Below the pieces are notes generated by a model, which was given only the letters and a program-made list of their open reading frames with translations, was not told the origin of the DNA and searched no databases. The translations under genes were made by a program, and so were the position numbers. Positions 7,810-47,507 of a stretch of DNA of 64,000 bases are shown here, in pieces; within the stretch, counting starts at the first letter, position 1, and every line of letters starts with the position of its first letter. Origin of the DNA: Spirochaetaceae bacterium (lineage in GTDB: Bacteria > Spirochaetota > Spirochaetia > Treponematales > Rectinemataceae); NCBI GenBank assembly GCA_025358255.1, contig JANYKC010000054.1:47355-111354 (forward strand), written 5' to 3'.

Positions 7810-8790
7810 TTATGGAGCATGGCCGAATTTCAGGCCGAGCCTCGCGAGCTGGGAACCGAGCTCCACGACGTCATGGGAGGCGGCGAACTTGAGGCAGACG
7901 CCGGAGGGGCGGCGGACGCGTTCGACCCAGGCGGGGGGGATGACTTCGTAGCCTTGCCTCGCTCCCGACATCGCGCCTACGAGGGCGGCTATCGTGTCGG
8001 CGTCGCGGCCGAAGTTGCTCGCCCAGAACATGCCCTTCTTGAAGTCGCCGCCGGTCAGGAGGAAGACGCCAAGGGCCTGGGGGATGGCCTCGGGGCTCAT
8101 CGAATGGCGGGGGGTCCAGAAATCGACATGGAGGGGAGCCCAGGCCTCCTCGATCGTGGGCTTGCGGAGGGAGAGGTCCAGCATCCTGCGCATCGTCACC
8201 CCGAGCCATGCGTCGGCGGGGATGTGGCGCGCGGCGGCGTCGACGGCCTCGGAGGCGGTGGCGCCGTCCATGCACAGACGCACGGCCACGGCGCAGGCGA
8301 CCGCGGCGTAGATGCCGTCCTCGTAGTGGCTGATGCTCGCCTCGAGGGCGGCCAGCTGGGCGGCATGGGCCTCGTCCCTGGCGATTATGCCCACCGGAGC
8401 GATGCGCATGGCCGCGCCGTCGTCCACGTTGAGGGTGTTGTAGCGGCCGGAGAGCGGCGGGACGAGTCCCCTCTTAAGGTTGTCCACGGCGCCGTAGAGG
8501 GGCACGCCGCCCCGGTCGAAGAGCCCTCCCTGGTCGAGGATGCGCCTCTTCCAGGAATCGAGGAGGCTCTCCACGGTCAGCTCGCCTCCGCAATCGAGGA
8601 GGGTCACGGCCGTGAGTACGGCGAACTCCGTGTCATCGGTGCTTTTAGCGCCGTCGTACATGTCGTCCACGATGCCATACCGGTCCCGGAAAGCCTGGTT
8701 CCGGCCCACATCGCCCATCGCGTCGCCGCAGGCAAGCCCGGCCATGCAACCCTTCGCCCTCGATTCATATCCTACCAATTGTTTCATCAT
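7810..8790 (-). CDS. ADP-ribosylglycohydrolase family protein (DraG/ARH fold), smaller paralog
   Basis: ARH motifs KGCMAGLACGDAMG, STDDTEFAV, FGRDADTIAALVGAMSGA; start codon overlaps the citF stop. Confidence 0.85.
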   Translation of the reverse strand: MMKQLVGYESRAKGCMAGLACGDAMGDVGRNQAFRDRYGIVDDMYDGAKSTDDTEFAVLTAVTLLDCGGELTVESLLDSWKRRILDQGGLFDRGGVPLYGAVDNLKRGLVPPLSGRYNTLNVDDGAAMRIAPVGIIARDEAHAAQLAALEASISHYEDGIYAAVACAVAVRLCMDGATASEAVDAAARHIPADAWLGVTMRRMLDLSLRKPTIEEAWAPLHVDFWTPRHSMSPEAIPQALGVFLLTGGDFKKGMFWASNFGRDADTIAALVGAMSGARQGYEVIPPAWVERVRRPSGVCLKFAASHDVVELGSQLARLGLKFGHAP

Positions 8791-10421
8791 TCCGTCCTTT
8801 CCCCTGGCCATTCTTGCTTCGAGTCCAGCTCCCGGACCACGTCCAGGACCGATCCGTCCCTCCATTCCACCACCGCGACGATCCGGTCACGGAACTCCGG
8901 CTCGTCGGGAATCCCGGTGATCGCGCGCGCCTTTTCCATGAGTTGTCCTATTTCGACGACGGGCAATCCCGCCCGCTTGGCGAGTTCCACGAGGTCGCCC
9001 CTTCTCGGGTTGATGGCTATCCCCCGCTCGGTGACCAGCGCGTCCACCACTTCCCCCGGGCAGGAGACCGTGGTCACGCGCTCCCTGATGATCGGTATGC
9101 GTTTCCTGAAGGATGGGGAGGTCACGATGCAGCACGAGGCGGCGGCGGCGGCGTCCTGGTGCCCGCCGATGCCGTGGAGGAGCCACCCATCCGAGTGGGT
9201 GTTAACGTTCACGTTGAAATCCAGGTCTATCTCGGTGGCGCCGAGGATCGAGAGATCGAGCATCGAGGCGGCGCATCCGGCGCCCTGCGGTCCGTAGGAG
9301 GTGAATGGAGTCGACTCGATGTGGCGGGGATTGTCCCTGCAGGACCGGACGGCGTCGAGGTCGAAACTCTGGAGGTCCAGGATGGAGCCGAGAAGTCCCT
9401 CTTCCAGGAGTCCCACCAGGATCCCCGTCCCGCCTCCATGGGCGAAGGAAGCCTTCACTCCGCCCGACCTCATGCGCTCCGCGAGGCTCGCCACCGCGGC
9501 AAGGGAGATGCCGCCGGCACCGGCCTGGAAGGAGAAGCCATCCCGGATGATGCCCATCCCCTCGGCGAAACGCGCCGCCATCTCGGCGATGAGGAGCTGG
9601 GTGGGGCTCCTTGTAAGACGCGTCGTGCCTGAAGCTATCCTTGCCGGGTCCCCGATGGAGGGGACCTCAAGCACCCAGTCCACATTGCCTCCGCGGATCG
9701 ACCAGGGAGAGCAGGGATAGGGAACGAGGCCGTCGGTCACGATGACGACCTGCTCGGCACAGAGCGAATCCGGGACGGGATAGGCCAGGGGTCCACATGC
9801 CGACTTGCCATGGATGCCGTTCGCGTTCCCGAAGGGATCCGCGCAGGGAGCCGCGATCACGGCGAGGTCGATGGGCAATTCTCCCGACTCCACGGCGCGG
9901 CAGCGGCCTCCGTGGGAACGGAGGATCGAGGTTCCGCGCATCGCGCCTCGCGAGCAGGCGGCGCCGACCGCGCCGTTCATCGAGCCCTCGATCCGGGAGA
10001 TCGCCCCGGATTCCACGAAGGGCACGAGTCGGTCATGGACGGGAAAGAGCGCCGTCGGGGCGATCACCAGGTCTCCATAGCCGCGGGCGATGATGCGCGA
10101 GATCGTCTCATTGATGATCGCGTCGCCATCGCGCAGGTGATGATGGAAGGAGACGGTCATCCCGTCGTAGAGGTCGAGCCGGTCGAGGAGCTCGTCCCAG
10201 GAGGAGACGAGCTTGGCGGGCGCTCCCCTGGAGGCTTGTCCCCGCATGCGGGGGCCCAGCCCGCGAGGACCCAGCCCGCGAGGACCCGGTCCCCGAGCCC
10301 GCGCCAAGCCAGGCGAGGCGGGTGGGGCTTGAAGGGCAAAGGCGCCCGCAAAGGGCCGCATCGCCCTCTCGCCGATCCGGTCCGGGACAGGGCGCCCCAA
10401 GGAGTTCACGTTAGATGGCAT
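8787..10421 (-). CDS. citF: Citrate lyase alpha subunit (CitF-like)
   Basis: DGMTVSFHHHLRDGD, DPFGNANGIHGKSACGPLAY, FNVNVNTHSDG, DALVTERGIAINPRR, DRIVAVVEWRDGSVLDVV; start at MPSNVNSLGRPVPDR. Confidence 0.85.
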   Translation of the reverse strand: MPSNVNSLGRPVPDRIGERAMRPFAGAFALQAPPASPGLARARGPGPRGLGPRGLGPRMRGQASRGAPAKLVSSWDELLDRLDLYDGMTVSFHHHLRDGDAIINETISRIIARGYGDLVIAPTALFPVHDRLVPFVESGAISRIEGSMNGAVGAACSRGAMRGTSILRSHGGRCRAVESGELPIDLAVIAAPCADPFGNANGIHGKSACGPLAYPVPDSLCAEQVVIVTDGLVPYPCSPWSIRGGNVDWVLEVPSIGDPARIASGTTRLTRSPTQLLIAEMAARFAEGMGIIRDGFSFQAGAGGISLAAVASLAERMRSGGVKASFAHGGGTGILVGLLEEGLLGSILDLQSFDLDAVRSCRDNPRHIESTPFTSYGPQGAGCAASMLDLSILGATEIDLDFNVNVNTHSDGWLLHGIGGHQDAAAAASCCIVTSPSFRKRIPIIRERVTTVSCPGEVVDALVTERGIAINPRRGDLVELAKRAGLPVVEIGQLMEKARAITGIPDEPEFRDRIVAVVEWRDGSVLDVVRELDSKQEWPGERTE

Positions 10422-11634
10422 CGCGGGCCCCCTTCCTTCCGGACTTCTCCTCGAGGACGCCGGCGAGGACAAGGACTCGACGCGCCCTCTCGGCCACGGG
10501 CGCGTCGATCATGGCTCCGTCGAGCGAAGCGACGCCCCTGCCCTCCGCCACCGCCGCGGCCAGGCTTTCCAGCACCCGCCTGGCACCGGCCACCTCCTGT
10601 GCCGAAGGCGAGAAGACGCGATGGACGATTCCGATCTGCGAGGGATGGATGAGGCCCTTCCCGGAGAAGCCAAGGGACCTGGCTCGCCGCGCCGAGGCTT
10701 CGAGCCCGACCAGGTCATCGACGTCCGAGAAGACCGTATCCTGGGCCTCGATGCCCGCCGCCCTGGCCGCGAGGACGATGAGGCTGCGCGCCACCTGGAT
10801 CTCCTCCTCGGCCGGCCCCCGGGCAACCCGGATATCGCGGCGATAGTCCTCGCCTCCGAAACAGAGGGAGACGTTGCGCGCGGATGCCGACGCGATGTCC
10901 GCGGCGTTGGCGACCCCCTTTGCCGTCTCCACGATGGGCATGAAGAGGATCGACCCCGCCCTCATGCCCGCGGAGGATTCAAGGCGCAGGACTTCACGGT
11001 CCCAAGCCTCGATGTCGGAGGAGGACTCGCACTTGGGGAGGACGATGCAGTGGGGACGCGCGCCCACGATCTCCGCAAGGTCGTCCATCGCGAACGGCGA
11101 AGACAGCGAATTCACGCGGACGGCGATTTCCGAGCCGCCGAAAAAATCGCTGAAGCCCTCAAGGAGCCTCCGCACCAGGATGCGCGCTTCCGCCTTGCGG
11201 TCCTCCGCCACCGAGTCCTCGAGATCGAGGAGGATGCAATCCGCGCCGAAAAGGCCGGCGTTGATCGGGAGTTCGCCCTGGTTCCCGGGAAGGTAGAGCC
11301 TGCTTCGCCGTGGGCGGTCACGGGAGGCTTCGGCGCGCGCTGGAGGCGATCCCTTTCCATGGGCATCAATGGGCGCGGCGCGGACCAGGCCGGCGGCCCT
11401 GAGGGCGGCCTCTACGCGTGAGGCGACCACGTAGTCGAGGGCGCCGTCATCCTCGATGGAGAGTCTCCCAGTCGCGCCGAAGGCTTCGGCTTCCTTTCGC
11501 GCCGCGGCTTCGATCGCCCGCCCAAAGAGCGAGGCGACGGAGGACTTCACATGGAGCTCGAGCCTTGGGCCCCCCGCTTCGAAAGCCACGAGGCAATCGG
11601 ACTTGCCCTTGGTCCCGGCGAGGAAAACGCTCAC
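10411..11634 (-). CDS. Fused CitD-like (acyl carrier) and CitE-like (citryl-CoA lyase beta) protein
   Basis: N-term AGTKGKSDCLVAF...VKSSVASLFGRAIE...DDGALDYVVASRVEAALRAAG (CitD-like) continuous with RSRLYLPGNQGELPINAGLFGADCILLDLEDSVAEDRKAEAR (CitE); GTG start overlaps upstream stop. Confidence 0.82.
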   Translation of the reverse strand: MSVFLAGTKGKSDCLVAFEAGGPRLELHVKSSVASLFGRAIEAAARKEAEAFGATGRLSIEDDGALDYVVASRVEAALRAAGLVRAAPIDAHGKGSPPARAEASRDRPRRSRLYLPGNQGELPINAGLFGADCILLDLEDSVAEDRKAEARILVRRLLEGFSDFFGGSEIAVRVNSLSSPFAMDDLAEIVGARPHCIVLPKCESSSDIEAWDREVLRLESSAGMRAGSILFMPIVETAKGVANAADIASASARNVSLCFGGEDYRRDIRVARGPAEEEIQVARSLIVLAARAAGIEAQDTVFSDVDDLVGLEASARRARSLGFSGKGLIHPSQIGIVHRVFSPSAQEVAGARRVLESLAAAVAEGRGVASLDGAMIDAPVAERARRVLVLAGVLEEKSGRKGARDAI

Positions 11635-13751
11635 AGCTCCTCCACCCTGAAAGGACCGTAGAGGGCCCGCGCCGCCTCGACACAACCGCAGCCGATCATG
11701 CCCGACCGGTGCGTGCCGTCCACCGTCTCAAGGAGGGCCTTTCCGTCCACGGAGAGCGACAGCCGATCGCCCACGGCCTCGAGGCAAAGCTCGTAGTCCT
11801 TGCCGAGGGCCCAGGCAAAGCCGGCAGTGGCAAGGCGCGTGAAGCCAAAGTCGTTCTTCAGGATGGACAGCCTGCCCGCCCCGTCGAATCCGGCGAAGTA
11901 GCCGCGCATCGCCCCGCCGCAGCGGGCCGCCACCAGGTGGCTTCCGCCGGCAAGCGGCGTGACCTGGGCGACGACCCTCTGGTCGCCCACGCCATGGCCG
12001 CCCGAATAGGAGGCGCAAGCCTCGTGGCTCATGAGCCGCATCCTCCCTTCCTCGATGGTCCAGGAGCCATGGTCATGGGCAAAGGGAGTGACGCAACCGA
12101 ACTCGATCGACTGGGCCGCGATGTCGATCGCATAACGCGCTTTCCCGCCGATCTGGAAGCGGTCGACGATGAGGCGACCGGAATCCCGCTTTTTCGCGCC
12201 GGAGAAACCGGTGATGCGCAGCCCCACCTCGTCGATCTGGGATCCCCCGACCTCGGGCAGGGTGAACTCGACCTGGTAGTCCTTGCCTGGCTCGGGGAAC
12301 ATGAGGACGGAAGCAGGCAGGATGGCGCCGTTCGAAGCCACCCGGACATAGCCCTCGACGCCCAGGCGCTCGCCTTCCCAACGCTCCATCCTGAAGTCGA
12401 TCCTGGCTTTCTGGCCGGGGCGGGCCGTCGGCGCGAAGGTGGGGCTGTAGCGCTCATCGTCGAAATCGGAGCGCTTGTAGCAAGGCTTGTAGAAGAGCCG
12501 GCCGGTGGCCTCCCGCAAGAGCCGCTCAAAGCGGAACTCGAGGGCATTGCCTCCATCCCTTCCCAGGCCCGCCCGATGCTCCACGGAAAAGGCCACCGGA
12601 TCGGAGACCCTGAGGTTGTGCGTGGAACCGGGGAGGGCAAAGTCGAAAAAGAGGCCCCTCTCGCCGTCGCCCGCGGCGAGGGCCGCGGTGATCGCCTCCG
12701 GTACAGCCTCCCGGGCGAGCCGGTAGCCGATAGAGGCGAGGAGGCGGGAGAAGGTCGGGATGTCGAGGATATTGAGGCTTCCCGAGATTCCGGAGAGGAC
12801 GATGCCGTCGTTGATGGGCGCGCGGTAGTGCGCGGGAATGGCGGACAGGCCATAGAGGACCCCCGCAATCGTCCCCACGTTCCCCGCGTTGCAGTCGGTG
12901 TCCCAGCCGCACATCGTCGCGATCTCCACCGTCCGGGAAAAGTCGCCTTCGCCGTAAAGTAGCGCCAGGACGCAGACTCCGGCGTTCGGGATCACATGGC
13001 AGAGGCCCGGGTACCTGTCGTAGCCCCATTGCGCGATGAGATGCCCCTGGCAGGCGCGCCAGTCGCCGGGCTGGGCGGCATGGAAACGGATGACGTCCCT
13101 GGCCACCCTCACGTAGGTCGAGGCAGGAGGCAAGCGGGCAAGGCCGGCCTCCACAACAGCGGCCGCGTTTTTTTCCACGAATGCCGCCGCGATGCAGGCC
13201 GCGACAAAGCGGGCGCCGGCCAGCCCTTCCCCGTCATGGGAGACGCTGGCGGCGGTGGCCGCATAGTCCGCGGCCTCGTCCGGGCGCCTCGGCCACACGA
13301 GGCCCCAGGTGTCCACGAAGATCTGTCCGCCGATCTGCTCCGCCACGGTCGCGCCATTGCGCGCGATCGAGCCGGATTCCGGCGCATGGATGCCGGACTT
13401 CATGTTGAGATAGGCCGTATGCTCGGTGCTCCGGCCGTAGCCGCCCCACCAGAACATGCCTATGCCCTCGCGGGCGTAGTCGAGCCAGGCGCGCTCCACG
13501 TCGATCGCCTCAAGGCCCCGGGCGTTGTCTCCCTCGATGAGGGGACGGATGAAATAGACAGGGCCATTCGCGTCGTCGTCAGCGGCGAAATTGCGGTAGG
13601 GCTTCAGGTAGCCCCGGACGTCGCCGTAGATATCCCTGATCCGCTCGTAGGTCCAAATGGCCGGCTCGACCGGCGCTCCGAGCCTGATGCCGACATTCTT
13701 GCCGATGAAGCCGGCATAGAGCCGCTCGAGGTAGTCACTCTGGATGGGCAT
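11631..13751 (-). CDS. Large ADP-ribosylglycohydrolase family protein with C-terminal beta-rich extension
   Basis: LYAGFIGKNVGIRLGAPVEP, ADDDANGPVYFI, MCGWDTDCNAGNVGTIAGVLYGLSAIP; ~300 aa C-terminal region with laminin-G/concanavalin-like look. Confidence 0.8.
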   Translation of the reverse strand: MPIQSDYLERLYAGFIGKNVGIRLGAPVEPAIWTYERIRDIYGDVRGYLKPYRNFAADDDANGPVYFIRPLIEGDNARGLEAIDVERAWLDYAREGIGMFWWGGYGRSTEHTAYLNMKSGIHAPESGSIARNGATVAEQIGGQIFVDTWGLVWPRRPDEAADYAATAASVSHDGEGLAGARFVAACIAAAFVEKNAAAVVEAGLARLPPASTYVRVARDVIRFHAAQPGDWRACQGHLIAQWGYDRYPGLCHVIPNAGVCVLALLYGEGDFSRTVEIATMCGWDTDCNAGNVGTIAGVLYGLSAIPAHYRAPINDGIVLSGISGSLNILDIPTFSRLLASIGYRLAREAVPEAITAALAAGDGERGLFFDFALPGSTHNLRVSDPVAFSVEHRAGLGRDGGNALEFRFERLLREATGRLFYKPCYKRSDFDDERYSPTFAPTARPGQKARIDFRMERWEGERLGVEGYVRVASNGAILPASVLMFPEPGKDYQVEFTLPEVGGSQIDEVGLRITGFSGAKKRDSGRLIVDRFQIGGKARYAIDIAAQSIEFGCVTPFAHDHGSWTIEEGRMRLMSHEACASYSGGHGVGDQRVVAQVTPLAGGSHLVAARCGGAMRGYFAGFDGAGRLSILKNDFGFTRLATAGFAWALGKDYELCLEAVGDRLSLSVDGKALLETVDGTHRSGMIGCGCVEAARALYGPFRVEEL

Positions 13752-13794
13752 GGACTCTCCCTGGATGGAAATGGATCCGCCGGGCAAGGAAAGG

Positions 13795-13829
13795 CAACCG
13801 TGGGGCACGGAATGCGCCCCCCACGGTTG
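13795..13829 (-). other. Intercistronic hairpin (11-bp perfect stem)
   Basis: CAACCGTGGGG ... CCCCACGGTTG between the SBP and large ARH gene; no U-tract. Confidence 0.7.
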
Positions 13830-13843
13830 GCACGATCCTTGTG

Positions 13844-15269
13844 CTACTTCAAGACCGTATTCGCGTACTTGGTCACCTCGACGCCGCCCGCCTTGTTCCA
13901 CTTGTCGACGAACTCGTCGAAGGCGGATATCGGCTTCTTGCCGGTCACGATGTCGGCGACGTATTCCTTGTAGAGGTTGGTCATCGCGTCCCAATTGGTA
14001 ACGTATTGCTCGGGGATGAGGAAGGTCTTGTCCGGAAGCATGTACTTCTTGGCCATGGCCCCGGCCTCGACGGCGGAGGGGTTCATGATGGGGCGGGACA
14101 GGGGCTTGTCGGGCTTGAACCCGTTGAGGGAGTCGCCGAACCAGCCGATGGGCCACTCGGGATACTTGTCGGTGAGGACATACTGCTTGCCGTCATCGAT
14201 GGAATGCACGCCGGGGATGCCGAGCTTGGCGAGCTTGAGGCCTGCCGGGCTCCACATGAAATCGAGGATGGCGAAGGCCTGGGCCTTGACCTTGGAGGTC
14301 GAGGAGATGGCGAAGCCGCGCGGCTCCTTGGTCACGTCCACGAAGGGCGTAAGCCCCTGGGCCTTGCCCTTGGCGGGAGGCAGGGGGACGAGGTCGGTGT
14401 TCTGGGCCTTGAGCATCTTGTTCACGTAGACATCGATGCTGCCGGGGGCCACGCCAGGGACGACGCCTGCCTTGCCCTCGTAGAAGACCTGTTCCTTGGA
14501 ATCCCACTTCTTGGTGAGGTATTCAGGATCGAGGAGGCCTTCCTTGAACAGCTTGGCGTAGAACTCGAGCTTGGCCTTTTCGGAGGCCTGGACGCGGGAA
14601 TAGCCCCACTGGCCGTCGGCGCCCTTGATCCAGGTCGAGGTGTTGCCGAAGGCGGCGTCGAAGATGGCGTCGAGCTCCTCGACGCCGTTCGTGGCGCCGG
14701 TGACGCTGATGCCGAACTTCGCCTTTCTTGGCGACGAGGTCCTTGAAGAGGGCATACCAGGTATCGACGGTCGGGTTGGCCTGGACAGCCTTGGCCGAGG
14801 GGAGGGAATCAAACCAGTCCTTCCTCATGACGGGAACGCGGACGCGGGGCGGGGCCAGCCATACGAGGTAGGGATAGCTCTCGAGGCGCGTGACGCTGTG
14901 GGGATCCATGAGGGCCTTCAGGTACTTGGACTTCGCCACATAGGGACGGAGGTCCTCGAGCACACCCTGGGTCGAGAGCTTGTCGTCGCCGCCCTGGAAA
15001 TAGATGAGGTCGGGGATGTCTCCCGACATCACCATTAGGCCGATCTTCTCGGCATAGTTGCCGGCCGGGGTCTTGAGGACCTCTATGCTTACCGGCGTGC
15101 CGGCGGCGGCCATGCCCTTCTCGACGAGCGCGATGAAGGCAGCTACATTCGGGTCCGAATCGAAGTCCTTCATCAGGAACCGCACCTTGGTCTGGGCAGC
15201 GACGCTGGCCAGGGTGCACAGGATGAACAGCAGCGACATTGTCGCGATCGCGATTCTCCGCATCTTCAC
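13844..15269 (-). pseudogene. Extracellular solute-binding protein (CUT1) interrupted by a single-base frameshift
   Basis: Two overlapping ORFs give the N-terminal (MRRIAIATMSLLFILCTLASVAAQ...) and C-terminal parts of one SBP; frame changes near the T-run at 14724-14726. Confidence 0.75.
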
Positions 15270-15283
15270 GGTGAGCCTCCTCA

Positions 15284-16183
15284 CTATTCTTTGACTCCAC
15301 CCTCCATGACCCCGCGAGTGTAGTACTTCAGGATCAGGGGATAGAGCATGAGCACTGGGATGATGGATACGATGATGGTGCCCGCCCTGAGGGCGGCATA
15401 GCTCAGGCGCGCGGCTTCATCGTAGCTATACAGGGTGCCGGCCCCGACGAGGGCGGCGGTGTCGTCCAGGACGACGAACTGCCTGAGGATGAGCTGGAGG
15501 GGGTACTTCACGGGATCGTTCAGGTAGATGCTCGCGCGGAAATACTCGTTCCAGTGCATGACGCCGTAGAAGAGGCCCAGGGTGGCCAGGGCCGACTTGG
15601 ACAAAGGGAGCATGATGCGGCTCAGGATCGTCCAGTGGCCGGCACCGTCCACGCGGGCGGCCTCGATGAAGGACTGGGGCACCTCCTCGAAGAAGCGCAT
15701 GAGGAGGATCAGGTAATAGACGTTGACCGACTTGTAGAGGATGACGGCCCACATGCTGTTCATGAGGCCGACTTTCTTGACCACGAGGTATTCGGGGACT
15801 ATGCCCGGCTCGAACACCATGATCACGATCACGAGGAGCATGAGGACGCGCTTCAGGGGCAGGTTCGGCCTCGTGAGCGCGTAGGCCGCCATGGAGGTGG
15901 CCACGAGGTTGATGAGGGTGCCGGCCACGGTGATGAAGACCGAGTTGAGGATGCTCTTCATGAAGAAGGGGTTGGCGGCGAGGACCTTGTAGACGATGAG
16001 GGAAAAGCCCTTCGGGAACACATCGAGGCCTGAGAGCTCGGAGACCCGCCTGGGGTCGGTGAGGGAGAGGGCCAGGAGGTTGAGGACAGGGACGAGGATG
16101 ATGGCCGCGACGGCGAGGAGGAAGATGCCGATGCAGGTCCGGAACACCCGGTCGGCGAAGGGGGACTTCACCTTGTTGCCCAT
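15284..16183 (-). CDS. Carbohydrate ABC transporter permease (YtcP/LplC-like)
   Basis: MGNKVKSPFADRVFRTCIGIF...SFIEAARVDGAGHWTILSRIMLPLSKSALATLGLFYGVMHWNEYF. Confidence 0.9.
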   Translation of the reverse strand: MGNKVKSPFADRVFRTCIGIFLLAVAAIILVPVLNLLALSLTDPRRVSELSGLDVFPKGFSLIVYKVLAANPFFMKSILNSVFITVAGTLINLVATSMAAYALTRPNLPLKRVLMLLVIVIMVFEPGIVPEYLVVKKVGLMNSMWAVILYKSVNVYYLILLMRFFEEVPQSFIEAARVDGAGHWTILSRIMLPLSKSALATLGLFYGVMHWNEYFRASIYLNDPVKYPLQLILRQFVVLDDTAALVGAGTLYSYDEAARLSYAALRAGTIIVSIIPVLMLYPLILKYYTRGVMEGGVKE

Positions 16184-17103
16184 CACCAGAGCCCCTTTCC
16201 CGTCGTGCGCTTGGCCATCACGTGGGTGGACAGGATGAGGACGAGGCCGATGGCGCCCTTGAAGAGGCTCGCCGCCGTCGAGAAGGAGTACTGCATGTTG
16301 ACTAGGCCGATGCGGTACACGTAGGTGTCGAGGATGTCGATGACGCTGATGACCGAGTCGTTCATCATGTTGAAGACCTGGTCGAAACCTGCATTCATGA
16401 AGAAGCCGAGGTTGAGGATGAAGACGGTCACCATGGTCGGGACCAGCTCGGGCAGGGTGATGAAACGCATCTTCTGGAGGGCGGAGGCGCCGTCCATGTC
16501 GGCCGACTCGTAGAGGCTGGGGCTGATCCGCATGAGGGCAGCCAGGTAGATGATGGAGTCCCAGCCGAGGCTCCTCCAGGTCTCGGATGCGAAGAGGACC
16601 CACCTGATGTGGGACTTGCTCGTCATGAAGTCCAGGGGCGGCAAGCCCAGGATGCCGCGGACCTGGTTGGCACCGCCCGTGCTCGGCGAGAGGAAGGCTA
16701 TCCAGATGCCAGCGATGGCGACCCAGGAAAGGAAGTGGGGCAGGTAGGCCACGGCCTGGGTGAACTTGCGCAAGGCGGCCGCCCGGAGCTCGTTCACGAG
16801 GAGGGCGAAGACTATCGGCAGCGGGAAAAAGAGGATGATCTTCATCGCGCTCAGGATGAGGGTATTGGTGAGGACCTTGTAGAAGGCCGGCGAGGAGAAC
16901 AGGACGATGAAGTGCTTGAGGCCGACGAATCGGCTCTTGCCGATCAGGCGGAAGTCCTGGAAGGCGATCACCATGCCCGCCATGGGCCAGAGATGGAAGA
17001 CGAAGAAATAGACGAAGGCGGGCGCCAGGAGGAGGAAAAGGAACCATTCCCGCCTCAGGCTGGAGGCGAAGGCCAGCGCGCCCTGTCCGGATCTCGTCGT
17101 CAC
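16183..17103 (-). CDS. Carbohydrate ABC transporter permease (LplB-like)
   Basis: GTG start VTTRSGQGALAFASSLRREWFLFLLLAPAFVYFFVFHLWPM...SADMDGASALQKMRFITLPEL. Confidence 0.9.
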   Translation of the reverse strand: MTTRSGQGALAFASSLRREWFLFLLLAPAFVYFFVFHLWPMAGMVIAFQDFRLIGKSRFVGLKHFIVLFSSPAFYKVLTNTLILSAMKIILFFPLPIVFALLVNELRAAALRKFTQAVAYLPHFLSWVAIAGIWIAFLSPSTGGANQVRGILGLPPLDFMTSKSHIRWVLFASETWRSLGWDSIIYLAALMRISPSLYESADMDGASALQKMRFITLPELVPTMVTVFILNLGFFMNAGFDQVFNMMNDSVISVIDILDTYVYRIGLVNMQYSFSTAASLFKGAIGLVLILSTHVMAKRTTGKGLW

Positions 17104-18122
17104 GCCCTCCCCCTTTTCGCTACGCTGCCGCGCAGCACGAGCTCGCCAGGGAAAAGCCGCCGCTCGGGCGGCTTGGCCGGATCCTCGAAGCGGGAGAGGA
17201 GGAGGTCGGCGGCCATCGCCCCCATGAGGGACCTCGGCTTGCGGACCGTGGTGAGCGCCGGAAAGGTATGGGCGGCCGCGGGGATGTCGTCCATGCCGAC
17301 CAGGGAGATGTCCTTCCCGGGCTCGACTCCCGCCTCCCGGAAGGCGTTGATCGCGGAGATCGCCATGATGTCGTTGCCGCAGAGGACGGCATCCACGCGA
17401 TCGCGCCATCGCGGCAGCTCCACGAGCTCCCGCACCAACTCCCGACCGCCCTCCTCGGACAATTTAACGGAGAAGGCCAGGTCGGCGTCCAGGGCCAGCC
17501 CCTTTTCCAGGAGGAAGTCCTCGTAGACCTTCCTCCGCAGGGAAAGGAAACGCTCGCTCCCGTGCTCGGTGGTGGCTATGGCGATGCGCCGGTGTCCCGT
17601 CTCCCAGAGATAGTCGAGGGCCATGCGGGTCGCCATCCGCGTATCGGTCCCCGTGGTGTCGAGGGCCTGGGACTCCGCCCGCTCGCCGATCATCACCGCG
17701 GGCAAGCCGATGGCAAGGATGGCCGCGATGTCGTCGGTCACGCTGTTCAGGATAAGGCCGTCAAAGCGCCCCGATCGGGCTAGCTTGTAGTAACGCGTCT
17801 CGCGCTGCTCGCTCCAGTCCGTATTGCCCACGACCACCGAATAGTCCTCTTCCTCGAGCCGGTCCTGGGCTGCCCTGGTGATCTCCGACCAGAAGGGGTT
17901 GGCGATGTCGGGAACCAGGAGGAGGACCATGCCGGTGCGCTGCATCCGGAAGCCGGCGGCGATGGTGTTGCGGGTGTAGCCGAGCTCCTGTATGGCCGAA
18001 TTCACGGCATCCAGGGCCTTCGGGCTCACCGAACCTCCGCGGTCGGAGATCACGCGGGATACCGTGCTTTTCGAGACCCCGGCGAGGCGGGCGACTTCGA
18101 TGATGCTGATGGTCGGCTTCAT
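17100..18122 (-). CDS. LacI family transcriptional regulator
   Basis: N-term TISIIEVARLAGVSKSTVSRVISDRGGSVSPKALDAVNSAIQELGYTRN; sugar-binding domain follows. Confidence 0.95.
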   Translation of the reverse strand: MKPTISIIEVARLAGVSKSTVSRVISDRGGSVSPKALDAVNSAIQELGYTRNTIAAGFRMQRTGMVLLLVPDIANPFWSEITRAAQDRLEEEDYSVVVGNTDWSEQRETRYYKLARSGRFDGLILNSVTDDIAAILAIGLPAVMIGERAESQALDTTGTDTRMATRMALDYLWETGHRRIAIATTEHGSERFLSLRRKVYEDFLLEKGLALDADLAFSVKLSEEGGRELVRELVELPRWRDRVDAVLCGNDIMAISAINAFREAGVEPGKDISLVGMDDIPAAAHTFPALTTVRKPRSLMGAMAADLLLSRFEDPAKPPERRLFPGELVLRGSVAKRGRA

Positions 18123-18150: not shown

Positions 18151-18179
18151 AGTGTAGCACGATATGCAAAAACGCGCAA
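18151..18179 (-). promoter_or_regulatory. Putative sigma-70 promoter for the lacI-family operon (TTGCGC-N17-TACACT)
   Basis: Reverse-strand -35 and -10 hexamers with 17-bp spacing, bracketed by the two operators. Confidence 0.5.
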
Positions 18180-18186
18180 GGAAATA

Positions 18187-18203
18187 ATGGGAACGTTCCC
18201 CAT
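18187..18203. promoter_or_regulatory. LacI-type operator O2, ATGGGAACGTTCCCCAT
   Basis: Second near-perfect GGGAACGTTCCC palindrome, centre 56 bp from O1. Confidence 0.78.
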
Positions 18204-18263: not shown

Positions 18264-19319
18264 ATGCTGGAGCTGCACTCGCAAAGAAGGTGGCCGGTCG
18301 TGTCATGGAGCAGGTTCGCTTTGGCCGTAGTGGCGTTTGCCGCATCCTCATCCGGCATCTGGGCCTCCCCGAACCCGGCAAGCCTTGTCGTCTACTGTCC
18401 CCATCCGCGCGATTTCATCAACGCCATCGTCCAGGAGTTCGAAGTCGAGACGGGAATCAAGGTTGAGGTGGTCGCGGCCGGGACGGGCGAGCTGCTCAGG
18501 CGCGTCGAAGCCGAAAAGGCCAGTCCCCTCGGGGATGTCCTTTGGGGCGGCAGCAGGGCCTCGCTCGAGATCTATAAGCAGTATTTCGAGGCCTATCGGT
18601 CGGGGAACCAGGCGTCCTTCGTGGCAAGGTACATCGACCCGGGCGACCGGTACACGCCTTTCACCGCGATACCCACGGTCTTCATGTTCAACAAGAACCT
18701 CGTTTCGCCCGCCGAATACCCGAAGTCCTGGGCCGGGCTTCTCGACCCGAAATGGCGGGGAATGATCGCCTTCGCGGATCCAGCCCTGTCCTCGTCGTCC
18801 TTCGAGGCCCTGGTCAACATGCTCTTCGCCATGGGACAGGGCAAGCCGGAAGACGGCTGGACCTATGTAACGAAGTTCATCGACAGCCTCGGGGGAAAGC
18901 TCCTCGCCGGCTCCTCGGCGGTCTACAGCGGCGTGGCCTACGGAGAATACGCGATAGGAGTGACCTTCGAGGAGGCGGCAGCCATCTACCTCAGGCAAGG
19001 CGCCCCGGTGGGCATCGTCTATCCTGCCGAAGGGACTATCGTCGAGCCGGACGGGGTCGCCATCATCGCAGGCGCGCCGAACCGCGGGAACGCCAGGCTC
19101 TTCGTCGATTTCGTGACCTCGCGGAGGGTCCAGGCCAAGATCGCGCGCAACCTCAACCGCAGGTCATGCCGGACCGACGTGCCCGCGGCATCGGGGTTGC
19201 TTGATATCGGAGCGATCCGGGTCATCCCGGGCGACTTCAAATGGGCGGGGACGAACAGGGAGGAGATCCTTGGGAACTTCGGGAATCTTGTGCGCGCCTG
19301 GCGAACGGAGCATCGATGA
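18264..19319 (+). CDS. ABC transporter substrate-binding protein (Fbp/Afu/phosphonate-type family)
   Basis: LVVYCPHPRDFINAIVQEFEVETGIKVEVVAAGTGELLRRVEAEK...DVLWGG. Confidence 0.85.
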   Translation: MLELHSQRRWPVVSWSRFALAVVAFAASSSGIWASPNPASLVVYCPHPRDFINAIVQEFEVETGIKVEVVAAGTGELLRRVEAEKASPLGDVLWGGSRASLEIYKQYFEAYRSGNQASFVARYIDPGDRYTPFTAIPTVFMFNKNLVSPAEYPKSWAGLLDPKWRGMIAFADPALSSSSFEALVNMLFAMGQGKPEDGWTYVTKFIDSLGGKLLAGSSAVYSGVAYGEYAIGVTFEEAAAIYLRQGAPVGIVYPAEGTIVEPDGVAIIAGAPNRGNARLFVDFVTSRRVQAKIARNLNRRSCRTDVPAASGLLDIGAIRVIPGDFKWAGTNREEILGNFGNLVRAWRTEHR

Positions 19320-19544
19320 GGGGCCGGGGACGGCATCGCCGGGGAAGCGGCTCCGGGCAAGGAGGAAAATGGACGATTGGAGTTTGAGGAAATCTTGACT
19401 TCGGGACCGTGATGCGCAAAGTAGGTAAGGGGGTCTGGCCGATCCCTCCCTGTTTGCCAGGGATCCGGTCCAGGCCAAGGCATCGGCGATCGACCTAGGG
19501 GTCGGATAGCCCGACCCGCGACATATCCTTAAGGGGGAAATTCG

Positions 19545-20543
19545 ATGAAACGATTCGTTGCGATCATTGCGGCATTGATGGCGATTGGCCTGGGCGCCTG
19601 GTCCCAGGAGAGCGTCAGCGTCTACGCGTCCTGCGACGAGGCGCTGGCGAAACAGCTCTTCGCCAAGTTCACCCAGGAGACCGGCATAGCGGTCAACTTC
19701 GTCCGCCTCTCCGGCGGCGAGGCGATCTCGAGGATGGAGGCCGAGAAGGGGAATCCCCAGGCCTCGGTGTGGGTGGGAGGCGTCGGCCTTGACCACATCA
19801 CCGGCAAGATCAAGGGCCTCACCACGCCCTACAAGTCCAAGGTCGCCGCGACCATCCCCGCGAAGTACCGGGACAAGGAAAGCTACTGGACCGGCCTCTA
19901 TGTGGGTCCCGTCACCTTCTTCACCAACAACAAGCGCGCCGCCGAGCTCGGGATCAAGCCCCCGACCTCCTGGGCCGACCTCATCAAGCCCGAATACAAG
20001 GGCTTCATCCGCATGGCCGATCCCCGCACCTCGGGCACCGCCTATGCCGTCATGACGACGCTTCGCTACGTCTTCAAGGGCGACGAGGGCAAGGTCTTCG
20101 ACTACCTCAAGAAGCTCGACGCGAACATCGACCAGTACACGCGCTCCGGGGCGGCCTATGCCGCCAGCGTCGCCACCGGGGAGATCCCGATCGGCATCGG
20201 CTTCGCCCATGACCAGGTCAAGATGCTCAACCAGGGCGTCGACGCGGTCATCACGGCGCCCAAGGAAGGCTCCGGCTTCGAGCTCGCCGCGATGTCGATG
20301 ATCAAGGGTGGCAAGGACCAGGTCAACGGCAAGAAACTCTACGACTGGATCCTCGGCAAATCCTCCCAGGAGATCTTCGCCACCTACTTCGTCCTCCTCG
20401 TGGCTCCTGGCGCCACGGTCCATCCCAAGGCCCTGCCCCTCTCCAAGGTGAACGCGCTGGTCCAGGACCTCGAATGGGACGGCGCGAACAAGGAAAGGCT
20501 CGTCAAGCGCTGGACCGAAGAGATCGGTTCGCTCCGCAAGTGA
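19545..20543 (+). CDS. ABC transporter substrate-binding protein (Fbp/Afu-type), second
   Basis: Signal peptide MKRFVAIIAALMAIGLGAWS then VSVYASCDEALAKQLFAKFTQETGIAVNFVRLSGGEAISRMEAEKGNPQASVWVGG. Confidence 0.9.
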   Translation: MKRFVAIIAALMAIGLGAWSQESVSVYASCDEALAKQLFAKFTQETGIAVNFVRLSGGEAISRMEAEKGNPQASVWVGGVGLDHITGKIKGLTTPYKSKVAATIPAKYRDKESYWTGLYVGPVTFFTNNKRAAELGIKPPTSWADLIKPEYKGFIRMADPRTSGTAYAVMTTLRYVFKGDEGKVFDYLKKLDANIDQYTRSGAAYAASVATGEIPIGIGFAHDQVKMLNQGVDAVITAPKEGSGFELAAMSMIKGGKDQVNGKKLYDWILGKSSQEIFATYFVLLVAPGATVHPKALPLSKVNALVQDLEWDGANKERLVKRWTEEIGSLRK

Positions 20544-20552
20544 TGTTCGACA

Positions 20553-20584
20553 GGGCGGCCTTCCCTCCACCTGGAGGGCCGCCC
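20553..20584 (+). other. Intercistronic GC-rich hairpin between SBP and permease
   Basis: GGGCGG-ccttCCCTCCA-cc-TGGAGGG-CCGCCC. Confidence 0.65.
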
Positions 20585-20628
20585 TTCTCCAGCGCCGACC
20601 CGTCAAGCGCCGCCAGAAAGGAGGGATC

Positions 20629-22845
20629 GTGATCGAAAAGAGAAGGCTCATCCGGCTCGTCGCCGTGGTGACTGTATTCCTCGCGGCCGACCTATGGGTC
20701 TGCACGACGCTCCGCGGTTCCTTCCGCGGCCTCATGGCGGAAAGCGAGACCAAGGCGATCGGCCTTTTCTCCAAGACCGCGCCTTCCGGTCCGGCCCAGG
20801 TGGCCGACTGGCTTTCCAGCGCGAAGGAGGCCCTGCCGGGCGCCCGCGTGCTGTGGCTTGCCGCCGATCCCGCCTCAGGCGGGCTGGTCCCCGCCGGAGG
20901 GGACGCCTCCCTGGCCGCCCTCGCCACGGACAGCGCGGCAAAGGCCGACTTCGACAAGGGCATCGACAGCGCCCACTACCTCGAACCATCGACCTCAGCG
21001 AAAAGTTATGCGCTCCCGGCAGCCGGGGGCTTCCTCGCGGCGCGCGGAAGGCTGCAGTTCGCGCCGGTGCCCGATGAATCCGGCGCGGACGCGCGCGGAG
21101 CCCTCGTCGTCTTGTCGGCCGGCGCCGTGGCCGCGCGCTTCGATGGCCTCATCATCGCCATGGGCCTGATCGCCGCCGCCATCTTCATGGCGATCTACCT
21201 GGTCATCAGCCTGAGCCGCGATCCCTTCATGGGCTTCGCCATCCTCGGGCTTTTCGCCATCGTCCTCGTCTTCGTGGCCTATCCGCTCTTCGAGTCCGTG
21301 CGGCTCACCTTCATGAAGGATGGGGCGCTTTCCCTCGCCGTCTGGAAGGAGATCCTCACGCCAGGCTACCTGGGAGCCCTTTGGGGCTCGATCAGGCTCG
21401 GCATGGTGACCGCGACCTTCTCGACCTTCCTCGGCTTCGTCTTCGCCTTCGTGACCGAACGCACCTCGCTCAAGGGCCGGAAGTTCATGACCACCATGGC
21501 GACCCTCCCGGTCATCTCGCCGCCCTTCTCGCTGACCCTCTCCATCATCCTCCTCTTCGGGAACAACGGCCTCATCACCAAGCAGCTTTTCGGGCTCAAG
21601 CACTTCTCGATCTACGGCCTCGGCGGGCTCTCGGTCGTACAGACGATCTGCATGTTCCCCATCGCCTTCCTCACCCTCTCGAGCGTCCTCAAGGGCATCG
21701 ACTCGACGGTCGAGGACGCGTCCCTCGACCTCCGCGCCTCACGGATGCGGACCTTCCGCTCCATCACCTTGCCGCTCGCCCTTCCGGGCGTCCTCTCGGC
21801 CTGGCTCCTCGTCTTCACCAACTCCCTCGCCGACTTCGCCAACCCCCTCCTCCTCGCGGGCTCCTACCGCGTCCTCTCCACGGAGGCCTACATGGCGGTC
21901 ACCGGGCAGAACAACCTGGGCGGCGGCGCGGCCCTCTCCCTCCTCCTCCTCCTTCCCACGCTCACGGCCTTCTTCGCGCAGCGGTACTGGATCGGACGCA
22001 AGAGCTACGTGACGGTAACCGGCAAGCCCTCGACGCGGCTCACCGAGCTCGCCTCGCCCGCCGTCCGCTTCGCCCTGGCAGCCTTCGTGGGCCTGTGCAT
22101 CGCCTTCATCATCTCCCTCTACGGCACCATCGTCGCGGGCTGCTTCGTGAAGAACTGGGGCATCGACTACAGCTTCACGCTCTCGAACATACCCGAGGCC
22201 CTGAGCCGCGGCTGGAAATCGATACTCGACACGGTGACTTTGGCGGCGGCCGCCACGCCCATCGCGGGCATCCTCGCCATGATCGCGGCCCTCGTCGTGG
22301 TCCGGAAGGCCTTTCCCGGCAAGCGCATCCTCGAGGCCCTCATCATGACGCCCTTCGCCGTCCCGGGGACACTCATAGGCATCAGCTACATACTCGCCTT
22401 CAACAAGCCGCCCCTCCTCCTCGTGGGGACTGCGGCGATCATCGTCATCAACTATGTCGTCCGCGAGCTTCCGGTGGGGCTCGAGGGCGGGGCGGCCTCG
22501 CTGCGGCAGATCGACCCCTCGATCGAGGAGGCCGCCCGCGACCTTGGCGCCGACACCCCCACCGTGTTCCGCACCGTCGTCCTGCCCCTCATCAGGCCGG
22601 CCTTCATCTCGAGCATGTCCTACACCTTCGTGCGCTCGATGACAGCCGTCTCCGCGATCATCTTCCTCATCTCGGCGCGATGGTACCACCTGACCGTGCA
22701 GATCTACAACTTCTCGGAGCTCCTCAGGTTCGGGCTCGCGAGCGTCCTCTCCACGGTCCTCATCATCATCGTCCTCCTCGCCTTCGGCCTCATGCGCCTC
22801 CTCGTGCGCGACGATGGCCTGACCGAGAAGTCCGTTTCGCAGTAG
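20629..22845 (+). CDS. ABC transporter permease (FbpB/AfuB-like, two fused permease modules) with extra N-terminal domain
   Basis: Two EAA-type loops (SLDLRASRMRTFRSITLPLALPG; ARDLGADTPTVFRTVVLPLIRP) preceded by ~160 aa TM-periplasmic-TM segment. Confidence 0.88.
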   Translation: MIEKRRLIRLVAVVTVFLAADLWVCTTLRGSFRGLMAESETKAIGLFSKTAPSGPAQVADWLSSAKEALPGARVLWLAADPASGGLVPAGGDASLAALATDSAAKADFDKGIDSAHYLEPSTSAKSYALPAAGGFLAARGRLQFAPVPDESGADARGALVVLSAGAVAARFDGLIIAMGLIAAAIFMAIYLVISLSRDPFMGFAILGLFAIVLVFVAYPLFESVRLTFMKDGALSLAVWKEILTPGYLGALWGSIRLGMVTATFSTFLGFVFAFVTERTSLKGRKFMTTMATLPVISPPFSLTLSIILLFGNNGLITKQLFGLKHFSIYGLGGLSVVQTICMFPIAFLTLSSVLKGIDSTVEDASLDLRASRMRTFRSITLPLALPGVLSAWLLVFTNSLADFANPLLLAGSYRVLSTEAYMAVTGQNNLGGGAALSLLLLLPTLTAFFAQRYWIGRKSYVTVTGKPSTRLTELASPAVRFALAAFVGLCIAFIISLYGTIVAGCFVKNWGIDYSFTLSNIPEALSRGWKSILDTVTLAAAATPIAGILAMIAALVVVRKAFPGKRILEALIMTPFAVPGTLIGISYILAFNKPPLLLVGTAAIIVINYVVRELPVGLEGGAASLRQIDPSIEEAARDLGADTPTVFRTVVLPLIRPAFISSMSYTFVRSMTAVSAIIFLISARWYHLTVQIYNFSELLRFGLASVLSTVLIIIVLLAFGLMRLLVRDDGLTEKSVSQ

Positions 22846-22856
22846 GAGCAAAGCAC

Positions 22857-23948
22857 ATGAAGAAGAACAGCGTGTCGGTGAGGCTCGAGGGTGTCACCAA
22901 GCGATTCAGGAATACCAAGGGCCGCGAGGACATCGTGGCGGTCAAGGCCTCCGACTTCGAGGTGGCGCCCGGCGAGCTCGTGACCCTCCTGGGGCCCTCG
23001 GGCTGCGGCAAGACCACGACCCTTCGCATGATCGCGGGCTTCGAGCTGCCCAGCGCGGGCCGCATCCTCATCGGCGACCAGGACGTGACCATGCTCACGC
23101 CCGACAAGCGGGACAAGGCCACCGTCTTCCAGAGCTATGGCCTCTTCCCCCACATGAACGTGGCGGACAATGTCGCCTATGGCCTGCGGATCCGCAAGAC
23201 GCCCAAAGAGGAGATGGCCCGCAAGGTCAAGGAGACCCTCGAGCTCGTGGGCTTGGCCGACCTGGCCGACCGCGCGCCGGGGCGCCTCTCCGGCGGACAG
23301 CAGCAGCGCGTGGCGCTGGCGCGGAGCCTCATCGTCGAACCGTCGGTCCTCCTCCTCGATGAGCCGCTCTCGAACCTCGACGCGCTCCTCCGCGAGCAGA
23401 TGCGCGTGGAGATCCGCAAGATCCAGAAAGCCCTCGGCATCACGGCCGTCTATGTCACCCATGACCGCGTCGAGGCGATGAGCCTCTCCGACCGCGTCAT
23501 CGTGATGAAGGACGGCCAGATCATGCAGATCGGCAGCCCCCAGGAGATCTACGAGAACCCCGTCACGCGCTTTGTCGCGGGCTTTGTCGGCAAGGTGGCC
23601 TTCTTCCCGGCCGACATCGCCTCGGGAGGCGAGAGGAACTGGGACTGCCTCCTCAACGGCAAGCATGTGCACGTCGAAAGGGCATCGGCGGGGCTCGCCG
23701 TGGGCAGCAAGGCCGTCGTCATGGCGCGGCCGGAATCCCTGAGGCTGACCGAACGCGGCGCAGGGCTCATAGAGGGCAGGGTCAGGATGAACGTCTACCT
23801 CGGGAACAGCATCGAATCTTTTGTCGATACTCCCTACGGGGAGGTCCTGGTGCAGGTCGACGATCCCGCGTCAAGGAAGGTCTTCCCCGAGGGCAGCGAC
23901 GTCGCGGTGACCTTCGAGCCGGATCGCATCCGCCTCCTTCCGGAGTAG
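22857..23948 (+). CDS. ABC transporter ATP-binding protein (FbpC/PotA family)
   Basis: Walker A LGPSGCGKTTT, signature LSGGQQQRVALARSL, Walker B SVLLLDEPLSNLD. Confidence 0.95.
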   Translation: MKKNSVSVRLEGVTKRFRNTKGREDIVAVKASDFEVAPGELVTLLGPSGCGKTTTLRMIAGFELPSAGRILIGDQDVTMLTPDKRDKATVFQSYGLFPHMNVADNVAYGLRIRKTPKEEMARKVKETLELVGLADLADRAPGRLSGGQQQRVALARSLIVEPSVLLLDEPLSNLDALLREQMRVEIRKIQKALGITAVYVTHDRVEAMSLSDRVIVMKDGQIMQIGSPQEIYENPVTRFVAGFVGKVAFFPADIASGGERNWDCLLNGKHVHVERASAGLAVGSKAVVMARPESLRLTERGAGLIEGRVRMNVYLGNSIESFVDTPYGEVLVQVDDPASRKVFPEGSDVAVTFEPDRIRLLPE

Positions 23949-27657: not shown

Positions 27658-29145
27658 CTAGTCCGCGCTGCCGGTGGCGAAGAACGCCACCGCATCGGAA
27701 AGGACCTGCGCCTCGCCGGCCATGGTCGTGGCCATGGAAGCCAGTTCCTCCGCGGATGCCGCATGTTGCTGGGTCACGCGGTCAAACTGGGCGATCGCAA
27801 GCCCGATCTGGTCCACCCCCGCCGTCTGCTCCTTGCTCGAGGCCGAGATCTCGCGGACGAGGTCCGAGGTCTTCCTGATCTCCGGCACGATGCCTTCGAG
27901 GAGGGAACCGGCCTTCTCCGCGATCTCCACCGAACGGATCGAGAGTTCCGAGATCTCCTTGGCGGCCACCTGGCTGCGCTCCGCGAGCTTCCGCACCTCG
28001 CTCGCGACCACCGCGAAACCCTTGCCCGCCTCTCCCGCCCGCGCGGCCTCTATGGCCGCGTTGAGGGCCAGGAGATTGGTCTGGCGCGCGATCTCCTCGA
28101 TGATCCCGATCTTCCCGGCGATGTCCTTCATCGCCACCAGGGTCCTCGACACCGCAAGGCCCCCCTCGTCCGCTCCTTTCGCGCTCCGCTCGGCCAGGCC
28201 CTCCGTCGAGACCGCGTTGTCGGAGTTCTGCCTGATGGCCGAGGCCATCTCCTCGACTGAGGAGGAGACCTCCTCGGCCGACGCCGCCTGCTCTGTGGTC
28301 CCCTGCGAGAGGTCCTGGGCGGTTCCGCTCATCTGCGCCGAACCGGACGCGATGACCGAAGCGCTGGACTTGATCCTATCCACCACGGCGGCCAGGCTGT
28401 CGCGCATGGCGACCAAGGCCTTGGCCAAGGCGCCGATCTCGTCATGCCGCGCAAGGTCCTTGCCATCCACCTGTCCTCCCAGGTCGCCGGCCGCGACATC
28501 CTGCGCAAGCCCGACAGCCCGTCCAAGGGGCCGGCTAATGGACCGCGCCAAGGCCAGGCCGAAGGCGATGATGAAGATGGCCAGGAGGCCCATGACCACG
28601 GCTTCGAGGAGGACGAGGCGGCCGGAAGTGGCTTGGTAGGCCGTCTGCTGGCTCGCGAATTTGGCGGCCACGGCCGTCCTTTGCGTGGACGTTTCGGAGC
28701 TGAGCTTGTCCGCCAGGGGAGAGGCCTGCTCGATGAACTGCTGGCGCCCGAGGTTGGTGTCGCCCCGGAGGATTATGTCGACAATGGCGTCATCGGCCTT
28801 GAGGAGGGCGTCGAGGGAGGCGACAAGGCCCTTGTCGTCAGGCGCAAAGGCGAGGGCGGAGGCGCGGAGCTCTTTCGAGGATTTCTCGTAGTCCGCCATG
28901 AGCTTCTCGAGCACATCGACATCCCGTTCACGGAGGAAGCTCTGCACAAGGCCCTGGATCCGCTCCGATTTAACGAGGACATCGAAGGCGTGGTCATTGC
29001 TCTTCCCGATCGAATCGATGAGCCCCCCTGCGGTCGCGTTGGAGCTGTTCAGGAAGGCGATGGCGGCGAACATCGAGCCGAGCACGATAAGCCCGGAAAG
29101 GGCGACGAGGAGGATGAGCCTCCCGGCCAGCGAAAGGCGGTTCAT
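27658..29145 (-). CDS. Methyl-accepting chemotaxis protein
   Basis: Two TM segments, HAMP and MCP signal domain ([44 protein letters not shown]). Confidence 0.95.
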
Positions 29146-29156
29146 GAAAGCCCCGC

Positions 29157-29717
29157 CTAGAGCTTGGAGACGTCGAGGCCGATGACGATGGAGCCGATGG
29201 CCTTGCCGCCGTCAAGGACAGGGAAGGATATCTGCACGGTCACCTTGCCAGAGGACTCGTCGAGGGCCGGAACGTCGATCCAGGTCTTGCCTGACATCGG
29301 GGAATCGTGCTTGGGCTTGCCCTTGTGGCTCCAGCTTGTCGTTTTGGCGAAGAAGGCGACCTTGGTGCCATTGGCTCCGGAGACGAAAAGCTCGGCCATC
29401 AGGGGGGTGCGCTTGCCCTTGAGGTATTCCGCCAGGGCATTCTTGCTTAAGCCTTTCACCTCCGGGCTGAGGACGCTCAAGCCGGCCCATTTCTCCTGGG
29501 TCATGCCGACGGTGTCGGCGGGCGGCGCGGCGTTGAATTCCTTGACAGCCTTGACGACCGTCGGATCGCTGCCAAGGGCCATGTATTCCTTGAGGGCGGC
29601 GTCCACCTTCGCCTTCTGGTCGGCGGTGAGGGTGGGTGAGCCTTGGGCGCTGAGGTTCGCAAGGACCAGGAAAACGGCGAAAAGGGCGATGAGAATGGCA
29701 CGAATCTTCAATTTCAC
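29157..29717 (-). CDS. Secreted PDC/Cache-like sensor-domain protein
   Basis: Signal peptide then [42 protein letters not shown], typical of PDC/Cache C-terminal strand; GTG start with SD. Confidence 0.7.
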
Positions 29718-30151
29718 GTTGGTCTCCTTGATTGGTTGTTGCATATAGCCTAAGAGCTGGGTTCGCAAAAATCAAGAAGACCGGTGAAAATGCCATTTTC
29801 CCAAAACATCTGTGCATTTGATAAAGATTGCGCACAACGCGCCTGCGGCGGCATTGCCGGTTTCCATGTGAAGTCCGAGGGCTCCTCGCGCTGCGCCCGA
29901 TTTCCCTTGCCCCCCCGGCCGGCCTCCATGTCAGGCTGTCCCAATTGCCGGACAGACGCGGGCCACGGGCCTGGGGGCAGGCGTCTCCGACGCCCAGTCC
30001 ATACGCGGGTGGATGACGGTCCCCTGCATCGCCAAGCTCCTCGGCCTCCCGAGCGGGGATATCTATGAGCGCATCGGCATTTCGGCAACCGGCTCCGCCG
30101 GAATAGGGGCGAAGGCTGAAGCGAAGGCAGGGGTAGGGACCTTCACCCCGT

Positions 30152-32985: not shown

Positions 32986-33063
32986 GAGCCGGCCTCCATG
33001 GAGCGCAACCCTGGATTCACTGGACGCGCAATAGGAACAGGGTAGGGAATGAAGGCCCTCTTG

Positions 33064-36639: not shown

Positions 36640-36670
36640 ACGGCCGCGGTCCGTTCCAAGGAGACATCCG

Positions 36671-47500: not shown

Positions 47501-47507
47501 TCCGTTT

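Follow-up and report, generated by a model that had tools for sequence, protein, structure and literature searches.

Why should a single operon join a sugar transporter of the CUT1 type to citrate-lyase-like subunits and to two members of the ADP-ribosylglycohydrolase (ARH) family? This combination occurs in a 64,000-nucleotide (nt) stretch of contig JANYKC010000054.1 from a Spirochaetaceae bacterium (assembly GCA_025358255.1), hereafter the window. Gene order, operators, family memberships, the alternation of lyases between loci and the loss of a serine from the carrier domain were computed directly. Together they point, with a probability of roughly 60%, to an operon for the substrate-induced uptake and catabolism of a ribosylated hydroxy acid of the citramalate or citrate type.

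Gene order and conservation of the operon

Eight genes run on the minus strand from 18122 to 7810 in the order LacI, PermA, PermB, SBP (solute-binding protein), ARHL, CitD-CitE fusion (CitDE), CitF and ARHs (Table 1). The initial annotation had described a co-directional operon, and all genes were found where it placed them, with most junctions overlapping by 1-11 nt. Several starts were corrected by comparison (PermA, GTG at 17103; ARHL, 13751; CitDE, GTG at 11634; CitF, ATG at 10421; ARHs, ATG at 8790). LacI and PermA overlap by 4 nt (GTGA) if the GTG at 17103 is the PermA start, and overlaps of 1 nt occur at PermA/PermB and PermB/SBP, of 4 nt at ARHL/CitDE (GTGA at 11631-11634), of 11 nt at CitDE/CitF and of 4 nt at CitF/ARHs (8787-8790). 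The earlier gene list was correct in positions and strand, but SBP has no intact open reading frame (ORF), and a gap of 92 nt lies between SBP and ARHL.

Table 1. Features of the operon and its control region in the window.
Feature	Position	Strand	Evidence
Operator O1, GGGAACGTTCCC	18189..18200	.	56 bp upstream of O2
Probable sigma-70 promoter between operators, TTGCGC-17 nt-TACACT	18151..18179	-	Read from sequence; similar pair in relatives
Operator O2, perfect palindrome TTGGGAACGTTCCCAA	18131..18146	.	Upstream of LacI in 10/10 loci examined
LacI-family repressor, first gene of the operon	17100..18122	-	Pfam LacI and Peripla_BP_3; orthologues (56-77% identity) stand first in the operons of relatives
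CUT1 permease A (PermA)	16183..17103	-	BPD_transp_1; GTG start overlaps LacI stop; 75-84% identity in relatives
CUT1 permease B (PermB)	15284..16183	-	BPD_transp_1; 69-87% identity in relatives
SBP, frameshifted by a 2-nt deletion near 14720	13844..15284	-	ORF comparison with relatives; pN/pS
ARHL, ARH3/DraG-like domain and two beta-sandwich domains, the last CBM66-like	11631..13751	-	Pfam ADP_ribosyl_GH (8.4e-50), AlphaFold2, Foldseek
CitDE, carrier domain without prosthetic-group serine	10411..11634	-	Pfam ACP (6e-16) and HpcH_HpaI (1.9e-48); alignments
CitF-like acyl/coenzyme A (CoA) transferase subunit	8787..10421	-	TIGR01584, 521.6 bits; Pfam CitF (1.3e-142); own clade in tree
ARHs, single-domain ARH-family protein, STDDT and GRDADT motifs	7810..8790	-	Pfam ADP_ribosyl_GH (1.7e-43); relatives in module loci

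The two BPD_transp_1 permeases and the family 1 binding protein, the latter frameshifted in the assembly, identify a CUT1 transporter. No cognate ATPase gene was found within the operon, and the rest of the genome was not searched for one; CUT1 systems often share an ATPase encoded at another locus. The deletion in SBP leaves ORFs at 14523-15284 and 13844-14812. These were rejected as two real genes because SBP forms one frame in relatives (an intact relative in locus L031 served as comparison). Purifying selection acts on both halves (pN/pS 0.28 and 0.16), as on every other operon gene, and the frameshift is therefore either recent or an assembly error, the latter being possible.

In a search of 99 genomes, counting the fusion at scores above 300 bits and as separate pieces in G011, CitDE occurred in 16, with ARHL immediately upstream and CitF downstream in 16/16. 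On long enough contigs the order of this module was mostly complete (LacI, ARHs, PermA, PermB, SBP, ARHL, CitDE, CitF), and ARHs stood last in G000, G001 and G017. The module order recurred in two families of the order (f1 and f4), Rectinema subterraneum (L055) carries the module, and the genes flanking it are mostly not common to relatives. Coincidental clustering was rejected because the gene order recurs across relatives, and conservation of the operon is practically certain. The initial annotation had proposed an uncharacterised catabolic module and had held that a gene order not conserved in relatives would refute it; the order proved conserved, and no open-access paper found by literature search describes the operon.

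Lyases that alternate beside a common core

A scan for ARHL over the genomes of 84,980 species returned 249 relatives; the counts below refer to the best 80 of these 249 loci, which are mostly from Firmicutes and are not independent by descent. Their common core consists of PermA, PermB, SBP, ARHL and a second ARH protein. The lyase varies: 55 loci have CmlA, 15 have CitF, none has both and 10 have neither, and AtuA, DUF4387 and PfkB are conserved neighbour families. The CmlA (AtuA/DUF1446)-type and CmlB-type proteins match chains of PDB 9erq/9evf at 470 and 90 bits. These closest solved structures were deposited under the name citramalate lyase (subunits A and B), and a literature search found no paper on the 9erq structure. 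CmlAB (AtuA/DUF1446 plus DUF4387) occupies the same slot in most Firmicutes ARHL operons and in some from spirochaetes (further loci L156, L157, L160 and L161), although its protein families are unrelated to CitDEF. No CmlAB match was found in the module genomes, in a search without a positive control of its own.

CitF is accompanied by CitD and CitE in L097, L110 and L117, and a full canonical CitD-CitE-CitF-CitC-CitXG set lies beside ribokinase-ARHL in L084. Among the ten loci without CmlA or CitF, a CitE-like lyase is paired with a family III CoA-transferase in L115 and with an NDP-forming CoA ligase in L091, while contig ends truncate several of the rest. Four further spirochaete loci (L154, L155, L158 and L159) hold in the same slot a citryl-CoA lyase (NF004869, above cut-off) and a CoA ligase of the NDP-forming acetyl-CoA-synthetase type. 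This pair, comparable to citryl-CoA synthetase plus citryl-CoA lyase, is not homologous to CitDEF. In the CitF tree, the ARHL-linked sequences fall in three separate clades, the module in one and Firmicutes in two other places, and therefore at least three recruitments took place. Elsewhere, methylaspartate (glutamate fermentation) clusters contain CitDEF in some bacteria and, in enterobacteria such as E. coli O157, a DUF1446 gene downstream of mal (PMC4682846); by analogy, that gene may be the citramalate lyase which the study was unable to locate.

Judged from family chemistry, the five lyase systems would have in common an acid with the general structure HOOC-CH2-C(OH)(R)-COOH, and membership of the acid in the citrate/citramalate class is highly probable. 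The most likely acid is citramalate or citrate, already present as such in the compound taken up, rather than a generic sugar acid. The initial annotation had placed CitDEF in a sugar or sugar-acid route, of which the catabolic route stands while the generic sugar acid gives way to these two candidates. Under that earlier proposal the lyase would act on an acid made from an imported sugar, with no pre-formed aglycone, as might be expected from a CUT1 transporter and a LacI repressor, which are typical of sugar operons. However, the operons contain no conserved dehydrogenase, dehydratase or isomerase able to convert a sugar to either candidate acid, and five systems aimed at acids of this type fit a released aglycone better, which makes a sugar-acid route quite improbable.

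In ten loci, two copies of GGGAACGTTCCC, one of them sometimes mismatched, lie upstream of LacI; they are spaced by about 56 bp and flank a sigma-70-like promoter. The exact site was confined to the ARHL operon in nine genomes of 2.4-4.7 Mb. An identical operator precedes spirochaete ARHL operons with other lyases, namely citryl-CoA lyase (L154, L155, L158 and L159) and CmlAB (L161), which suggests that one effector may be common to ARHL operons with different lyases.

ARH proteins and the sugar

Both ARH proteins belong to PF03747 (149.8 and 170.5 bits against a gathering score of 26.2), a family known to cleave ribosyl bonds. The metal-site residues Asp58-60, Asp284 and Asp286 of ARHL are invariant in 49 sequences. 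Its AlphaFold2 model (pLDDT 92) comprises an ARH3/DraG-like domain together with two beta-sandwiches, and the final one superposes on CBM66 at about 2 Å (Foldseek); a sequence search of the PDB with ARHL gave no match. ARHL thus has the fold and binuclear-metal aspartates of ARH1/ARH3 and DraG, but differs from them in the two extra beta-sandwiches and in lying in a transporter operon, and an ADP-ribose substrate is not indicated.

The earlier idea that the ARH proteins act on a ribosylated compound is supported. A ribokinase-like gene is present in 51/80 of the best ARHL loci; the kinases of L092 and L084 exceed the ribokinase equivalog cut-off and three other representatives tested fall short. 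In G084 such a gene directly follows CitF, and the L100 operon extends to include ribokinase, RbsD and a transporter of the ribose type. Ribose is accordingly the probable sugar. A parallel consistent with riboside use is the staphylococcal cluster SERP2216-2218, which encodes an ARH protein, a permease and a ribokinase (PMC3637587) but has another permease type and no lyase. Two ARHL paralogues (35-38% identical; L162 and L163) lie beside a different CUT1 transporter with no recognised lyase and probably act on another substrate.

Another reading considered is that the module cleaves a different hydroxy acid with the same shape, such as a 2-substituted malate, from some other furanoside. Five CitF replacements fixed in 12/12 module sequences could mean a changed substrate, the sugar of PfkB kinases varies, and the CBM66 of B. 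subtilis is known for fructofuranosides. Against these points stand the 470-bit match of CmlA-type proteins to a structure named citramalate lyase and the two kinases above the ribokinase cut-off, and this alternative is unlikely.

Carrier domain and proposed pathway

The CitD part of the fusion carries Lys (Arg in one) at the prosthetic-group serine position in 16/16 sequences, whereas Ser is kept in every canonical CitD compared, including that on contig C54 of the same genome. An invariant Cys after the Lys/Arg-x-Asp motif was considered as an acyl-thioester site and dropped, as canonical Treponema-type CitD (L029 and L030) has this Cys too. CitD of these two canonical loci, from family f3 genomes, reads Ser-Asn-Asp-Cys, and the others Ser-Ser/Gly/Cys-Asp followed by a non-Cys residue.

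CitDE falls far under the equivalog cut-offs in both its CitE (261 vs 443.4 bits) and CitD (43 vs 63.5 bits) parts, and CitF lies above that for the citrate lyase alpha subunit (501 bits). Module CitE retains 23/27 near-invariant canonical columns with catalytic motifs intact, and module CitF 62/74, with module-specific residues at the five canonical-invariant positions mentioned above. In the tree, the module CitF sequences share a long stem in a single clade with full support and are separate from the canonical CitF encoded in the same genomes. A CitDE model and its Foldseek matches indicate a CoA-lyase-type CitE barrel; they do not discriminate substrates. The module therefore resembles the citrate/citramalate lyase complex (CitDEF, CitC, CitX and CitG) in its homologous CitF alpha, its CitE beta and its CitD-like domain. 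It differs in the fusion, in the lost serine, in the lack of CitC, CitX and CitG from the operon (in several genomes, from anywhere), and in the sugar transporter and ARH proteins linked with it.

Could the module nevertheless be an ordinary citrate lyase whose carrier is modified in trans? The absence of citC, citX and citG from the window, noted in the initial annotation, was confirmed, and the only matches in this genome lie on C54, within a complete conventional citrate-lyase locus. Such a locus elsewhere, feeding these subunits, had been named as grounds for refutation, and its presence, like the CitF score, favours modification by the C54 CitC, CitX and CitG. However, the C54 locus has its own serine-bearing CitD, its own CitE and its own CitF, and the module CitD lacks the acceptor serine. 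Furthermore, CitX and CitG were not found in seven module genomes (G006, G010, G019, G021, G023, G027 and G084), nor was a convincing CitC; four of the seven are 93-99% complete with low contamination. Together with the low CitE and CitD scores, this makes modification in trans very unlikely.

The missing serine also bears on a role of the ARH proteins in making, removing or repairing the ribosyl-linked prosthetic group of the lyase, or an ADP-ribosylation. ARHs adjoins CitF here, and the ribose-ribose bond of the prosthetic group resembles the poly(ADP-ribose) bond cut by ARH3. Yet the majority of ARHL loci lack any carrier-dependent lyase (CmlA is present in 55 and citryl-CoA lyase in four), and ARHL has a CBM66-like domain and a sugar transporter alongside wherever contigs allow. 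Action on the prosthetic group, also raised in the initial annotation, was rejected on the missing serine and the carrier-free lyases, and is extremely improbable.

With Lys or Arg in place of the serine of phosphoribosyl-dephospho-CoA attachment, and with seven module genomes lacking CitX and CitG, the complex probably uses catalytic free CoA. Operation with free CoA, like that of the CoA-dependent variants in the same slot, would be the simplest reading, and the balance tips slightly towards it.

From these observations we infer a substrate, a set of enzyme activities and a use of CoA. LacI would repress the operon through the two operators flanking the promoter, and the CUT1 transporter would import the ribosylated conjugate. 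ARHL and ARHs, as cytosolic metal-dependent ribosidases, would free ribose and the acid, and ribose would pass to a ribokinase, encoded elsewhere in most spirochaetes and beside CitF in G084. CitDE-CitF would split the acid into acetate and pyruvate (from citramalate) or oxaloacetate (from citrate): CitF may transfer the CoA of acetyl-CoA to the acid, and CitE may split the resulting acyl-CoA, regenerating acetyl-CoA, so that free CoA acts catalytically.

Several points weigh against this pathway. The acid is not fixed by the enzymes, as CmlAB points to citramalate and citryl-CoA lyase to citrate, and free-CoA use by CitDE-CitF is deduced from sequence. To our knowledge, neither ribosyl-citramalate nor ribosyl-citrate is a known natural product; neither was found in literature searches, and those on the substrate, CmlAB and ARH-ribokinase operons returned nothing decisive. 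L082, L103 and L106, with full flanks present, have no recognised lyase nearby. Ribokinase lies outside the operon in most spirochaetes and was not seen in 29/80 loci, some on short contigs, and the SBP gene in the window is frameshifted.

More broadly, it is conceivable, at somewhat less than even odds, that many Firmicutes and spirochaetes feed on an unrecognised ribose-citramalate or ribose-citrate conjugate by means of ARH-fold glycosidases, and that one spirochaete lineage made its citrate/citramalate lyase dependent on free CoA by losing the prosthetic group. If so, this would be a widespread catabolic pathway for an unrecognised natural substrate, in which ARH-fold proteins gain a nutritional rather than signalling role and five unrelated enzyme systems have been exchanged for one reaction. 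A citrate-lyase-type complex without the prosthetic group would also make the role of that group testable.

Other features of the window include, divergent from the operon (18264-23948), two tandem paralogous binding proteins of the aminoethylphosphonate/iron type, a double-length permease and an ATPase. Three methyl-accepting chemotaxis proteins cluster at 27658-34890, two of them (31147-34890) neighbouring and with the same domain layout. A DUF362 protein with a 4Fe-4S domain (36620-37810) adjoins an M29 peptidase, and a 1196-aa protein (44044-47634) joins a LacI-type sugar-sensor domain to an AraC DNA-binding domain and also has a weak histidine-kinase-like segment.

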